Shown here in pieces: positions 6,661 through 12,828 of a stretch of 64,000 nt of DNA (its first letter is position 1; every line of letters begins with the position of its first letter). Source of the stretch: an uncultured Lewinella sp. (lineage in GTDB: Bacteria; Bacteroidota; Bacteroidia; Chitinophagales; Saprospiraceae). The stretch spans positions 25,835 through 89,834 of the forward strand of contig CAJXPD010000004.1 of assembly GCA_913057785.1 (NCBI GenBank). Reading direction: 5' to 3'. Both the position numbers and the translations under genes were made by a program. The notes under the pieces are model-generated. The model was not told where the DNA came from, did no database searches, and was given only the letters and a program-made list of their open reading frames with translations.

Positions 6661-7893
6661 ATGAATAAGAAATATCATTTGCTGTGTAAGGTCATTATCC
6701 AGCACAGCTATTTTTTGGAAGGTCATGCCCATGTAAGCCTGGAGCCAACTATAGAGTCTTCCAGGTTGATGCAACAATATGATTTGCGGATTAGAAGAGT
6801 TACGGGAGGAATAGAGCTCTACTATGGAGAGGCTGTAGGGAAGTCTTTTTTACAACTAATGGACAAAGTGTTTGTCTTGAATTTCATATTGAGGACATCT
6901 GATCCATATTGGAGCAATTATACGAACCTCCCTCTTTTGGGAAACAGTAACAGAATGCTCTTCTTTTCTAATACCAAAACGGCAATCTCTTCCAAAGGCA
7001 ATACTTTATTGCATCAAAATGAATGGGTGTCATCAGTCGATTACAAGCCGTTTCTATCCAATATTTACGTAAGAGCACTGTCCTCTACTTCGAATGAACC
7101 TGAGTTTAAGTTAATGGACTCTCAGCGAAGTATCTACTCCGAGAAACAGGTGTCAGGTTGGAGGGTTTCACCTAAAGAAGAGGACCGACCAGCACTACTA
7201 GAATTGAAACTAGATACTTTTGCAATAGGAGAATATTCCTTTGAAATAGATGGTGTAGTTCAAAAATTTGTACATATGCCGCAATCAGAGGCACTGAGAA
7301 GCCTTGGTATCGTTGAACTTGCGGTGGGGGAAGTACAAGTAGACGGAGAAAACCTTCATCTACTGCAAAAGGACGAGCAAGTGGTTCCTGCTACTTATGA
7401 AATCCTATTTGAGGCTCGAGAAACGGTTTGGCGCTATTATCTAGTTAACCATAAGGAGATAGATACGGAAACCATTATGATAAAAGAGGGAGTGACGGGC
7501 CAAGCTAATGGAAAAGAAGTAGGAGTAATCCGTCCAATACAATTAGAGGGGAAAGAATTGAGTAATGGAGAAAAAGCAACTCTAGTCGAATTGCAGAAGG
7601 CTAGAGCCTTAAGTGAAAGCCCTACAGGTTTTCTACACCTGACGGCAAGTGTTTTGAATTCAAATACTGGCGAAGAAGAGGTATTGAGCCTTAACCTACC
7701 GCTGGCTAACGGGACACAGATTATTCCCAAAATTCAGGAAAGCCAAGTAAATAATACTGTAGAAGAGGACGATCATTTGTTACAAAGAGAACAAGGAAAA
7801 GATCTAGAAATTGTTGAGGACTTAAATGCCGTTTTTCCAAAACAGCTCAAAATAGTCCAGCGTGTATACTCCGACATATACGTGTATTTATAA
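6661..7893 (+). CDS. Contractile-injection-system-associated protein of unknown function
   Basis: 410 aa, immediately upstream of sheath; N-terminal pattern (HSYFLEGHAHVSLEPTIESSRLMQQYDLRIRRVTGGIELYY) resembles proteins found in Bacteroidota eCIS loci. Confidence 0.6.
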   Translation: MNKKYHLLCKVIIQHSYFLEGHAHVSLEPTIESSRLMQQYDLRIRRVTGGIELYYGEAVGKSFLQLMDKVFVLNFILRTSDPYWSNYTNLPLLGNSNRMLFFSNTKTAISSKGNTLLHQNEWVSSVDYKPFLSNIYVRALSSTSNEPEFKLMDSQRSIYSEKQVSGWRVSPKEEDRPALLELKLDTFAIGEYSFEIDGVVQKFVHMPQSEALRSLGIVELAVGEVQVDGENLHLLQKDEQVVPATYEILFEARETVWRYYLVNHKEIDTETIMIKEGVTGQANGKEVGVIRPIQLEGKELSNGEKATLVELQKARALSESPTGFLHLTASVLNSNTGEEEVLSLNLPLANGTQIIPKIQESQVNNTVEEDDHLLQREQGKDLEIVEDLNAVFPKQLKIVQRVYSDIYVYL

Positions 7894-7912
7894 ACTTTAA
7901 AACCTAATCCGC

Positions 7913-9784
7913 ATGGCGAAGGTTTATGCAACCCCGGGCGTGTATATCGAAGAAAAAAGTGCCTTTCCCAACTCAGCTGTACCCGTAGCTACTGCAGTAC
8001 CGGCCTTTATCGGTTATACAGAAAAGGCCATCAGAGATAAAAAAAGCACTAAGAATATACCGATCAGAATCTCCTCCTTTGGTGAGTATCTATTGTACTT
8101 CGGAGGTGGACCTAAAATAACTTATCAAATAACGGATATTAAGAAAAAGGATCCCAGCCAAGTTTATCAATTAGATGTAAACAAAAGTACTCAGTACTTC
8201 TTATTTAATTGTATGAAATCTTTCTTTGCCAACGGCGGGTCAGATTGCTACATTGTTTCTGTTGGGAGTTACAAGGATTCGATTAAGATAGAGGATTTCT
8301 TTGGAGAGGTTCCTGATGGTGATGAGATGAAACTATTGGGGATTACTTCATTAAAGAAGTACCCAGAACCTACCATGTTGGTTATTCCAGATGCGGTTCT
8401 ATTAAGTAGAGAAGATTGCGGAACCCTTCAACAGCAAATGTTACGTCATTGTGGGCAAGATATGCGTAGCCGGATAGCCATATTAGATATACATGATGGT
8501 TATCAAAAGCGGACAAATGCCCATGATTCCTCCGATGTAATCTTTGATTTTAGAGAAAAAATCGGCTCTAATTTCCTGGATTTTGGTGCAGCCTACTACC
8601 CATGGCTTCATACCACCATTACAAGTGCAGAGGAGCTTGATTTTACCAACATAGATGAGCAGGCGGAATCTGAATTTATTGCCATCTTAAAACAAGATAT
8701 AGATGCATCAGTTTCTGCAGGACTGTTAACTAGTGAGCGAGCAAGCGAGATTAAGAATGAGATAGGATCGATGGAGATAGCTAGGAAACAGCAGGCGGAG
8801 TCAGCCTATTTTGAAGCGATAATGCTACTGCTGAAAGATTTGCAAGGAATAGACGATCGAAGTGTTGAGGATTTAAAAACCAAAATAAAGGAAGAAGGTG
8901 CAGATATAAAAGCTCTACTACAGCATGCAAACTTGACGGATTTCATAAGCAAGACAAATGAACTTCCTGTGCCCAGCATAACTAAAGCGAGTGGTGATGC
9001 AGTACCGACATTTACTACAGTGCATTTTCAACTTCGAATAGATACAGCTGTAAATACAGCCGAAGATCTTGATACAATTCTTAAGGTCAAGAAAGAAGGA
9101 GAGGAGATTCAGCATAAAAGAATCAAAATAAAAACCTTGCACCAGTCTCTTTTGGCTATAGCCCCATTGTATAAATCCATCATGGACAGTGTTAGGCAGA
9201 AGATTAATTTGCTACCACCTAGTGGGATTATGGCAGGTATCTACTCAATGGTGGATAATAATGTTGGCGTTTTTCAATCCCCCGCTAACGTTAGTGTAGG
9301 ATCAGTAGTGGAACCTGCTGTGAACTTGAGTAATGAAGAGCAAGAGGATTTAAATGTTCCCCTAAATGGAAAAGCAGTCAATGCTATTCGGACATTTCCA
9401 GGAAAAGGTGTGCTAGTGTGGGGCGCGAGAACGCTAGATGGGAATAGCCAGGACTGGCGCTACATCAGTGTGAGACGGACAGTTATTTTTATCGAACAAT
9501 CGATCAAATATGCGGCCGAACCTTATGCCTTCGAACCTAATACTGATGCTACCTGGACAAATCTGAAGGCATTGATCACTAACTTCTTGACCAATGTTTG
9601 GCAACAAGGTGCATTGGCGGGTGCTACTGCCGAGGATGCTTTTAGTGTGGATATTGGACTAGGGGTTACCATGACACCAGTAGATATTTTGGATGGAATA
9701 ATGAAAGTGATCATTAAAGTGGCTGTTACTCGCCCGGCGGAATTTATCGTCATTACTTTTCAACAGAACATGCAACAGCCCTAA
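7913..9784 (+). CDS. Contractile tail sheath protein
   Basis: ATPGVYIEEKSAFPNS N-terminus; GKGVLVWGARTLDGNSQDWRYISVRRTVIFIEQSI and RPAEFIVITFQQ C-terminus are diagnostic of eCIS/phage sheath. Confidence 0.95.
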   Translation: MAKVYATPGVYIEEKSAFPNSAVPVATAVPAFIGYTEKAIRDKKSTKNIPIRISSFGEYLLYFGGGPKITYQITDIKKKDPSQVYQLDVNKSTQYFLFNCMKSFFANGGSDCYIVSVGSYKDSIKIEDFFGEVPDGDEMKLLGITSLKKYPEPTMLVIPDAVLLSREDCGTLQQQMLRHCGQDMRSRIAILDIHDGYQKRTNAHDSSDVIFDFREKIGSNFLDFGAAYYPWLHTTITSAEELDFTNIDEQAESEFIAILKQDIDASVSAGLLTSERASEIKNEIGSMEIARKQQAESAYFEAIMLLLKDLQGIDDRSVEDLKTKIKEEGADIKALLQHANLTDFISKTNELPVPSITKASGDAVPTFTTVHFQLRIDTAVNTAEDLDTILKVKKEGEEIQHKRIKIKTLHQSLLAIAPLYKSIMDSVRQKINLLPPSGIMAGIYSMVDNNVGVFQSPANVSVGSVVEPAVNLSNEEQEDLNVPLNGKAVNAIRTFPGKGVLVWGARTLDGNSQDWRYISVRRTVIFIEQSIKYAAEPYAFEPNTDATWTNLKALITNFLTNVWQQGALAGATAEDAFSVDIGLGVTMTPVDILDGIMKVIIKVAVTRPAEFIVITFQQNMQQP

Positions 9785-9848
9785 TCATTTTTACATACAC
9801 AAATTTTAACTGTAAGCGCAAATGCAGTTTCCAAAAATTAAATAAAAG

Positions 9849-10301
9849 ATGGCAGGTGAAAAGCAGGAGGCCCCTTGGCCCGTACCTAAATTCCATTTCA
9901 AAGTAACCATTGGAGACAAGGGCGAAATCGCATTTCAGGAGGTATCTGGATTAGATACAGAGCCCGATATTGTTGAATATCGGGCAGGAAATGGTGTCGA
10001 CTTTCCCACTATAAAAATGCCTGGGATAAAAAAGGCTAGTGATGTTACATTAAAGAAAGGTATGTTCAAAGTTGATACTGCTTTGTTTCATTACTTCATG
10101 GAAGTAAAGATGAACACCATCAAACGAGAAACGGTGACCATTCAACTATTGGATGAAGAACACAAACCCATGTTTACTTGGACTTTAAAGAATGCCTTCC
10201 CCATGAAGGTAACCAGTACAGATATGAATGCCCAAAATAGTGAGGTTGCTATTGAGGAAATGACACTGGCACATGAAGGATTAACTTTCGAAAACGCCTA
10301 A
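9849..10301 (+). CDS. Contractile tail tube (gp19-like) protein
   Basis: PWPVPKFHFKVTIGDKGEIAFQEVSGLDTEPDIVEYRAG...KKGMF...WTLKNAFPMKVTSTDMNAQNSEVAIEEMTLAHEGL. Confidence 0.95.
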   Translation: MAGEKQEAPWPVPKFHFKVTIGDKGEIAFQEVSGLDTEPDIVEYRAGNGVDFPTIKMPGIKKASDVTLKKGMFKVDTALFHYFMEVKMNTIKRETVTIQLLDEEHKPMFTWTLKNAFPMKVTSTDMNAQNSEVAIEEMTLAHEGLTFENA

Positions 10302-10341
10302 TCATATCATTATTCCCACGCTCAAAAAATAAATTTAAAGC

Positions 10342-11898
10342 ATGGCTATCTCACCTATGTCCGGAGCAATTGACCTTGTCACAGTAAATGTGAAACTTAG
10401 AGGGAAAGCGATAGATGATACTGTCTCTATCCTCTCCATTACAATATCTAAATCCATTAATCAGGTAGCGACTGCTGAACTTCAGTTGTTTATTCCCCAT
10501 GATAGTGATGTGGTAACGCCTTTTTCTTTGGCAAGAGATGAGGATTATGCGCCAGGGGAAGCAATAGAAATCTTGTTGGGTTATGACACAAAGGAGGAAA
10601 GTGTCTTCGAAGGAATAATTGTTGCCCAACAATTTCGTGGTGATGCAACAGGTAATACACTGAGTTTGAGATGTAACCATAAGGCGATCCAGCTTACTAA
10701 AGAGCTGAGCACAGTCACTTGGAGTGACAAAAAAGATACGGATGCAATTTTGGAGGTCATTTCTAAGTCAGGCTTATCGGGAGATGTAGAATTAGTAGGT
10801 GAAAAAGAGGATTTAATCGTACAATTTCAAAGTACAGCTTGGGATTTTATTCAACAGAAAGCCAGTGACCATGGCTTGATAACGTACACAGAAGAAGATA
10901 AGATCTTTGTGAAGAAACCGCTGCAGAGTGGAGTAGCTGACTTAGTGCTTACTTATGGAAAGGATGTAATCTCTTATGAATTAATGCAGGGGGAGTCAAC
11001 CACGAAAAAGGGCTCACTGACTTTTGTGGGAAATGCCACGCCTAAATTGAATACTAAAATTCAGTTAGCCGGCTTTGGAAAATCATACAGTGGTGATGTG
11101 CTCATTACAACTGTGCAGCATGAGGTGAGAGAAGGTAATTGGCAGACAAGCGTAGGATTTGGCTTGGACAATGATATTGGTACTAGTGACTCAGATGCTG
11201 ATTCAGCGAATTTGGGCTTGCCGGAGGTTAACGGTTTACAGCCTGGGGTAGTAGAGAAGGTTGAGGATGATCCAGATAAAGAACTTCGAGTCCTGGTGCA
11301 TGTTCCGGGCATTGGTGGCAAACTTTGGGCGCGATGGTCTACTATCTATGCTACTAAGAATAAAGGTATCTTTTTTGTGCCGGAGGTTGGAGATGAGGTA
11401 GCTATTGGATTCGTAAATGGTGACCCAAGAGATGCCATCGTACTAGGGATGCTGTACAGTAGTAAAAATCCACCACCCTATACAGCAGATGCTGATAACA
11501 CAATCAAAGCGATCGTCACGAAAAATGATCTCAAGATAGCGTTTAACGATAAGGATAAAATTCTGACACTTGAGACACCAGCGGGTAACAAATTCATTCT
11601 TTCTGATAAAGATAAATCCATCTCAACCCAGGACCAGCATGGAAATAAGATGGTAATGGATAGTGCTGGAATAAGCCTTAACAGTGCCAAGGATATAACC
11701 ATCAAGGCTGCGGGTAAGATTGATTTTAGTGCTAACCAAGCGATCACCGCTAAGTCATCTGGAGGGGACGTTGCCGTCCAGGGGGTAAATGTGAATCTAA
11801 AAGCGCAGGTAGCCTTATCTGCTCAAGGATCAGCCTCCGCTGAACTGAAAGCTAGTGGACAAACCACTGTCAAAGGTGCCATGGTAATGATTAATTAA
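10342..11898 (+). CDS. vgrG: VgrG-type spike protein
   Basis: 518 aa gp27/gp5-like: WDFIQQKASDHGLITYTEEDKIFV, GGKLWARWSTIYATKNKGIFFVPEVGDEVAIGFVNGDPRDAIVLGMLYS, C-terminal beta-helix repeats. Confidence 0.95.
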   Translation: MAISPMSGAIDLVTVNVKLRGKAIDDTVSILSITISKSINQVATAELQLFIPHDSDVVTPFSLARDEDYAPGEAIEILLGYDTKEESVFEGIIVAQQFRGDATGNTLSLRCNHKAIQLTKELSTVTWSDKKDTDAILEVISKSGLSGDVELVGEKEDLIVQFQSTAWDFIQQKASDHGLITYTEEDKIFVKKPLQSGVADLVLTYGKDVISYELMQGESTTKKGSLTFVGNATPKLNTKIQLAGFGKSYSGDVLITTVQHEVREGNWQTSVGFGLDNDIGTSDSDADSANLGLPEVNGLQPGVVEKVEDDPDKELRVLVHVPGIGGKLWARWSTIYATKNKGIFFVPEVGDEVAIGFVNGDPRDAIVLGMLYSSKNPPPYTADADNTIKAIVTKNDLKIAFNDKDKILTLETPAGNKFILSDKDKSISTQDQHGNKMVMDSAGISLNSAKDITIKAAGKIDFSANQAITAKSSGGDVAVQGVNVNLKAQVALSAQGSASAELKASGQTTVKGAMVMIN

Positions 11899-11919
11899 TC
11901 TAATGAACAAACTATAAAT

Positions 11920-12219
11920 ATGCCACCAGCTGCAAGAATAACGGACATGCATACTTGTCCGATGCAAACACCAGGTGTAACGCCCATACCGCATGTGGGC
12001 GGGCCAATAGTCGGTCCTGGCGTTCCTACTGTTTTGATTGCAAGCCTGCCTGCTGCGGTAGTGGGAGACATGTGTACTTGTGTTGGGCCTCCCGATTCGA
12101 TTGTAAAGGGATCGGCTACGGTGATGATTGGCGGTAAACCAGCTGCTCGCATGGGAGATACTACTGCTCATGGAGGAAGTATTGTGCTTGGAGCGCCTAC
12201 AGTAATGATCGGAGGGTGA
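11920..12219 (+). CDS. PAAR domain spike-tip protein
   Basis: MPPAARITDMHTCP...GKPAARMGDTTAHGGSIVLGAPTVMIGG. Confidence 0.95.
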   Translation: MPPAARITDMHTCPMQTPGVTPIPHVGGPIVGPGVPTVLIASLPAAVVGDMCTCVGPPDSIVKGSATVMIGGKPAARMGDTTAHGGSIVLGAPTVMIGG

Positions 12220-12303
12220 TCACAAACGCAAGTTATTTAGCTTAGGTTGAACTTTGAATACGGAGTTTTGACGGTAGCTTATATCACAAAAAAGAGGCTT
12301 AAC

Positions 12304-12828
12304 ATGGAATCCTTAGAAGACCATCTGTTCATTTCTAATGCAGGCTTAGTTATTTTAGCTGCTTTTCTACCTAGGTACTTCGACACCCTGGGTATGTTGG
12401 AAGACAAGCAATTTAAGAATGATGAGATGGCAGCCAGAGGAGTACTACTCCTACAATATCTAGCCACAGGCCAATCGGAAATTCCGGAATATCATCTAGT
12501 GTTTAATAAAATACTCTGTGGGTTAAATATTGACTTCTCGGTGCCTCAAAGCATTGAGCTGAGTGACGAAGAGGAAAAAATGTCTTCTTTACTTCACACC
12601 TCAGTACTTCAAAATTGGGAAATGATGAAGAACTCTTCCATCGAGAACTTCCGCGGGGCTTTTCTTTTGAGAGAAGGAAGTTTAGGTGAAGAAGAAACGA
12701 CTTGGGTGTTACAAGTAGAGCATAAGCCCTATGACATAGTACTCAGTAGTCTCCCCTGGACTATATCAATGGTGAATTTACCATGGATGAAAAAAAGAGT
12801 GAAGGTGGAATGGCGAACCCAGCCCTAG
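12304..12828 (+). CDS. Contractile injection system tape-measure family protein, C-terminal domain only
   Basis: SNAGLVILAAFLPRYFDTLGMLE...RGVLLLQYLATGQSEIPEYHLVFNKILCGL...NWEMMKNSSIENFRGAFLLREG...LPWTISMVNLPWMKKRVKVEW matches the conserved C-terminus of CIS_TMP proteins; ATG at 12304 rather than TTG at 12247. Confidence 0.8.
   Translation: MESLEDHLFISNAGLVILAAFLPRYFDTLGMLEDKQFKNDEMAARGVLLLQYLATGQSEIPEYHLVFNKILCGLNIDFSVPQSIELSDEEEKMSSLLHTSVLQNWEMMKNSSIENFRGAFLLREGSLGEEETTWVLQVEHKPYDIVLSSLPWTISMVNLPWMKKRVKVEWRTQP

Follow-up and report, generated by a model that had tools for sequence, protein, structure and literature searches.

Can the parts of a contractile injection system (CIS) stay under selection after the baseplate has gone? 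Known contractile machines are assumed to depend on a baseplate, both to assemble and to be triggered. The stretch of DNA analysed here (the window; 64,000 nucleotides of an uncultured Lewinella sp., a marine bacterium of the Saprospiraceae type, positions 25835-89834 of contig C4 in genome G000, stopping at the contig end) holds six CIS genes with no recognisable baseplate gene among them. We show that this cassette is a reductively evolved extracellular CIS (eCIS), derived from a Lewinella-type eCIS by the deletion of blocks before the split of three species of the genus, and that the four core genes, namely those of the sheath, tube, VgrG and PAAR, have been kept intact under purifying selection since the reduction. 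The block-deletion origin and the retention under selection are both well supported; as to the products, we lean slightly towards a sheathed rod that carries a spike and has no baseplate. If the cassette is selected with no recognisable baseplate, either a rod of sheath, tube and spike can be built in another way or CIS parts have been kept for a second use, and both outcomes are testable with few genes.

Results

Components of the cassette

The original prediction, made from the letters of the window, had placed a sheath, a tube, VgrG, PAAR and the C-terminus of a tape-measure protein (TMP) on one strand within 6.2 kb, and six open reading frames (ORFs) were confirmed there. Together with two deletion junctions, the features are as follows.

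6661..7893, forward strand: cap adaptor of the Cis16B/Alg16B family, 410 residues (profile matches to solved cap adaptors)
7913..9784, forward strand: contractile sheath, 623 residues (PF17482/PF04984; PDB sheaths)
9849..10301, forward strand: inner tube protein tube1, 150 residues (PF06841; PDB eCIS tubes)
10302..10341, no strand: deletion junction, expected place of tube2 and the LysM adaptor (Cis5/Cis7); only 40 bp where complete loci have tube2-LysM
10342..11898, forward strand: VgrG/Cis8 spike, 518 residues, with a deletion of about 75 residues in the gp27-like hub (PF04717; PDB 9rce_F)
11920..12219, forward strand: PAAR tip, 99 residues (PF05488)
12220..12303, no strand: deletion junction, expected place of gp25, J-like, Cis11-like, J2 and the TMP N-terminus (order in locus L120; aligned PAAR/TMP-C junction in three congeners)
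12247..12828, forward strand: TMP-C, the stand-alone C-terminal domain of the CIS tape-measure family (PF19268 positions 295-463 only)

The first of these ORFs has no Pfam match. A profile of 12 members of its family, nonetheless, matches the solved cap adaptors, i.e., All3326 of the Anabaena thylakoid CIS (tCIS; 7b5i, 1e-30), that of AlgoCIS (7adz, 2e-18) and SalCis16b (9r9n, 9e-17), and its position in the window is that of the cap adaptor in complete loci, between Pvc16 and the sheath. In terms of the sheath, tube and VgrG, descent of the eCIS type is indicated by the PDB and profile matches and also by a sheath tree that nests the window among complete eCIS. In Pfam, the sheath matches PF17482 (E = 1.2e-10) and PF04984, the single tube gp19 (PF06841, E = 1.5e-42), VgrG Phage_base_V (PF04717, E = 2e-20) and PAAR PF05488 (E = 5e-26); in the PDB, the sheath matches those of SalCIS, AlgoCIS and Anabaena tCIS at 2e-143 to 3e-88 and the tube matches eCIS tubes at 3e-45. 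The alignment of VgrG to 9rce_F has a gap spanning chain residues 218-296 of the latter, where the hub residues are missing, and the identical deletion is found in the congeners G001 and G002. The tape-measure protein (PF19268, E = 8e-68) covers only positions 295-463 of the 463 in CIS_TMP; its start is more likely ATG at 12304 (174 residues) than TTG at 12247, and the corresponding ORF of a congener, with 173 residues, begins at the equivalent MED.

Search for a baseplate

The baseplate and the LysM adaptor had been predicted to be missing, and this was borne out across the genome and in three congeners. With G026, a complete eCIS genome, as the positive control, gp25 (PF04965), the J-like baseplate wedge (profile of four J-like proteins; E = 0 in G026) and the CIS_tube/LysM adaptor Cis7 (PF19266) all gave matches in the control and none in G000 (completeness 96.9%), G001 (about 100%), G002 (95%) or G003 (80%). 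Also, a genome-wide search of G000 returned no second sheath and no second CIS_TMP, and no further CIS components were seen within the 25.8 kb upstream of the window, which were also read, or downstream to the contig end. In the neighbourhood of the cassette, no AAA+ ATPase (Cis15, Afp15-like) was recognised; the genome as a whole was not searched for it. The cap had been listed as missing as well, which is correct for the cap proper (Pvc16, Cis16A; absent from the cassette and from G001-G003, G026 positive) but not for the cap adaptor Cis16B, which is present and had gone unrecognised. Of parts of the Afp14/Afp16 type, the window has only the C-terminal part of CIS_TMP (Afp14 type) and, instead of Afp16 itself, the cap adaptor.

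A single orphan Pvc16_N ORF (PF14065) does occur in G000, at positions 2780-3316 of L128 (contig C502, 4.4 kb), where it adjoins glycine dehydrogenase and a sigma-factor-like ORF; this contig may be a contaminant (contamination of G000, 7.9%).

The original prediction went on to propose a split system or satellite, in which the cassette gives a rod and a spike to a baseplate encoded elsewhere. Arrangements of this kind are conceivable in other genomes: a reduced cassette accompanies a complete eCIS in both G163 and G137, for which a satellite role is possible, and gp25 was found in the genomes of several other reduced loci. The type VI secretion system (T6SS), furthermore, is known for orphan islands, defined by hcp, vgrG and/or PAAR, which are like the window in having tube and spike genes without a full cluster and are often independent of a full system (PMC13098142). 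The window differs from those islands in that it has kept a sheath, that its parts are of the eCIS type and that its genome yielded no parent system. In the genus of the window, however, the proposal was not supported, since no gp25-family, J-like or CIS_tube protein was found in any of four genomes, including one that is about 100% complete; G209, too, combines a reduced cassette with a genome lacking gp25, and gp25 is absent from G040. A T6SS as the donor of the baseplate is also unlikely because the gp25 family includes TssE, and no PF04965 match exists in G000. The satellite or split reading is thus largely refuted for this genus, and we regard it as very improbable for the window.

Origin of the cassette

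In complete loci the gene order is Pvc16 - cap adaptor - sheath - tube1 - tube2 - LysM - VgrG - PAAR - gp25 - J-like - Cis11-like - J2, and TMP comes after J2 in those that reach that far (Lewinella, Neolewinella and other genera); L120, for example, has PAAR-gp25-J-266-J2-TMP. The window has exactly this order minus three blocks, namely Pvc16, tube2-LysM and gp25-J-Cis11-J2 with the N-terminal part of TMP. Because complete relatives have the same order with the blocks in addition, the cassette arose by deletion, and the earlier description of a reduced particle or remnant was right as to origin. The nearest relatives of the sheath and tube belong to complete eCIS of the Lewinella/Neolewinella type (L035, L036 and L039; G199, G161 and G447), the probable ancestor type of the cassette, which possess Pvc16, tube2, LysM, gp25, J-like, Cis11-like, J2 and a very long TMP, whereas the window retains only the C-terminus of the last.

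The loci of G001 and G002 have the same genes as the window, minus the cap adaptor, between the same flanks: an M28 peptidase and a 130-residue lipoprotein-like ORF on one side, and DUF2071 and an Omp85-type protein on the other. Their tube/VgrG and PAAR/TMP-C junctions align with those of the window, the intergenic sequence being homologous. With the site, the junctions and the hub deletion of VgrG shared by three species, reduction before the species split is the simplest account. An assembly artefact is ruled out by the same junctions in separately assembled congeners, and a phage remnant by the distance of the phage sheaths, of which the closest (Streptomyces and Microcystis phages) show 31-36% identity over 31% of the protein. 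The close phage sheath relatives that would mark a contractile phage or R-tailocin were thus not seen. Nine plasmid records have VgrG matches, all below 60% identity.

Selection on the retained genes

The sheath, tube, VgrG and PAAR genes are intact in G000, G001 and G002. Ratios of nonsynonymous to synonymous substitution rates (dN/dS) among the three species are 0.12-0.14 for the sheath, 0.12-0.26 for the tube, 0.18-0.21 for VgrG and 0.05-0.09 for PAAR, with dS of 0.40-1.21 and bootstrapped 95% confidence intervals far below 1; being pairwise, these values span the whole period after the species diverged and are compatible with some recent relaxation on one branch. Under simulated neutral drift of 0.5 substitutions per site per lineage, the sheath would acquire about 19 stops and VgrG 15. 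Furthermore, comparison with about 70 complete systems showed that the window has 92/93 of their invariant residues (at least 95%) in the sheath, 28/28 in the tube, 44/44 in PAAR and 46/51 in VgrG.

Between G001 and G002, dS of the tube gene (L115:9157-9609 and L116:13795-14247) is unusually low at 0.40, compared with 0.86-1.05 in VgrG and the sheath; this could perhaps come from codon bias or gene conversion.

Reduced loci in other genera

As judged from gene content and sheath sequences, at least two further genera have an identical or almost identical set, and their sheaths fall on separate branches of the tree. In G163, which belongs to another genus and is assembled as a single contig, the order is cap adaptor - sheath - tube - VgrG - PAAR - TMP-C (186 residues), and VgrG has a deletion in this part of the hub as well, but one of its own that differs from that of the window; G209 has this set without TMP-C, and G137 has the same set plus Pvc16 and a 143-residue Cis11-like ORF. 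Conservation of the gene order, which had been suggested as a check, is hence seen in two sister species and recurs beyond the genus. The sheath tree (a quick tree with no bootstraps) puts the window group, the pair of G163 and G221, and the sequences of G137 and G209 in separate places among complete systems, ruling out one old clade for these groups; the labels reduced and complete need 10 changes on this tree, at least six of them forced by starred branches. Three genomes do form a fully supported clade of reduced loci only (sheaths of L136, L118 and L200), and their contents are a sheath alone, a sheath with VgrG at a contig end, and a sheath with a tube2-type gene and TMP-C. TMP-C as a stand-alone frame, 169-195 residues long, was seen in six genera, and some of these frames have no other CIS gene nearby.

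A further arrangement was seen in Dysgonomonas sp. 25 (L054:7442-15504), where a short Pvc16, cap adaptor, sheath, two tubes, VgrG, PAAR and a 608-residue TMP follow one another with no LysM, gp25 or J-like gene in between; gp25 is elsewhere in the genome.

Discussion

What might the cassette make? The products retained are the parts of a rod and a spike, and our best guess is hence a sheathed rod with no baseplate, nucleated by the spike. As a working mechanism, PAAR and the hub-truncated VgrG would form the tip, where TMP-C might act as a plug or nucleator, standing in for the tube initiator and the wedges; tube hexamers would extend from this tip with the sheath co-polymerising, and the rod would be ended by the cap adaptor where it is retained. 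With no wedges and fibres there would be no trigger by receptor binding, so that the rod would not be a canonical free injector but might work inside the producer or after lysis, contracting spontaneously or bearing cargo. AlphaFold gave the VgrG of the window a mean pLDDT (predicted local distance difference test) of 83.5, with 70-91 in the blocks that flank the deletion, and strands are predicted on both sides of it; the model resembles CIS VgrGs by fold, the best TM-scores being only 0.5-0.65 over the whole chain. Isolated TMP-C was predicted at a pLDDT of 94.8, and a fold search of the PDB with it returned no match at E<=0.001. Whether VgrG can seat a tube is a matter on which neither model carries information.

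Several observations weigh against a selected, working rod. Constraint on the tube is about tenfold weaker than in complete systems (dN/dS of 0.12-0.26 vs 0.01-0.03). Within the genus, the cap-adaptor gene that G001 and G002 lack is present in G003, TMP-C is frameshifted in G002, and G003, the fourth congener, has only a relic of VgrG and has lost PAAR and TMP-C. Other genomes keep other subsets (sheath only; tube2, VgrG, PAAR and TMP-C; TMP-C only), a pattern that looks like decay. Single deletion of Pvc8, 11, 12, 1, 5, 7, 4 or 9 is reported to halt particle production in the Photorhabdus virulence cassette (PMC12210884), and no canonical particle is therefore expected from the window. Also, baseplate proteins may exist that have diverged below the sensitivity of the profiles.

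These observations are much what would be expected of a decaying relic, in which the baseplate was lost, injection is dead and the remainder goes piecemeal, the ORFs being intact through recent loss in each lineage or through slow purging of large, soluble, self-assembling proteins. The genus can be read as a series of stages from G000, the fullest, through G001 and G002 to G003, similar series with differing subsets are seen in other genera, and the constraint on the tube is relaxed. It had been held that a gene order unique to this strain and bearing inactivating mutations would speak against a real cassette; the order is shared with two sister species and other genera, yet the broken TMP-C, the relic VgrG and the lost cap adaptor are real. 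The relic, nonetheless, has to accommodate a reduced state common to three species at dS of about 0.4-1.2 with four intact ORFs under dN/dS of 0.05-0.26, where neutrality predicts several to many stops in each longer gene, and the retention of the invariant residues. We thus consider it somewhat unlikely but a live rival, as is the reuse of single parts.

In the latter, individual products (sheath, tube, TMP-C) would have tasks unrelated to injection; they might, for instance, block phage tails or kin eCIS by assembling together with them, or provide a scaffold within the cell. Single intact parts elsewhere would fit such a role, i.e., a sheath alone in L136, L139 and L142 and TMP-C alone in L199 and L201, as would the self-contained fold predicted for TMP-C; the fact that tube, sheath, VgrG and PAAR have been kept together and in one order, on the other hand, suggests a joint structure, and repurposing appears improbable to us. 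A stronger form of the sheathed-rod reading, that a functional apparatus without a baseplate ("mini-CIS": cap adaptor, sheath, tube, hub-truncated VgrG, PAAR and stand-alone TMP-C) evolved recurrently and independently, with the spike and TMP-C providing the platform for assembly in place of the baseplate and the tube initiators, is one that we put forward tentatively and hold to be rather doubtful.

Among known systems, AlgoCIS of Algoriphagus machipongonensis has a sheath, tube, VgrG and cap adaptor homologous to those of the window, while it is encoded in an 18-ORF cluster and forms an extracellular particle with a cap and a baseplate, and deletion of its cap adaptor already yields aberrant particles (PMC8894135). 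One eCIS survey requires at least 10 core genes in proximity (PMC8213781), against the six CIS genes in the window, and another requires every baseplate class (PMC12210884), so that loci like this cassette are filtered out. No description of a baseplate-less eCIS cassette was found in the titles, abstracts and passages searched, which take in little of the subscription journals. Intact genes across species, together with separate origins in other genera, imply that these parts may serve a role outside the scope of the published surveys.

Minor observations

The ends of the G003 contigs L008 and L117 resemble the Nextera transposase adaptor, and the two overlap via such a sequence inside the sheath gene.

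A tube with no gp25 was found in 15/249 genomes of the order. Orphan tubes were considered as a gauge of reduced systems and then dropped, since, among the loci fetched from these genomes, the only mini-cassette besides the window's own locus was that of G209, and most others were a separate, stand-alone kind of tube. G000 itself has an orphan tube ORF of 142 residues (C1:20243; L145:9928-10732), which is unrelated to the cassette and stands directly after a 127-residue ORF, and L043 has a similar pair of a 127-residue ORF and a tube. Stand-alone gp19-type tube genes with no nearby sheath are also present in L148, L150, L151, L157, L158 and L159 (at about 10.0-10.6 kb in each), all from nearly complete genomes of the order; several of them have a hydrophobic N-terminal stretch when the translation is read by eye.

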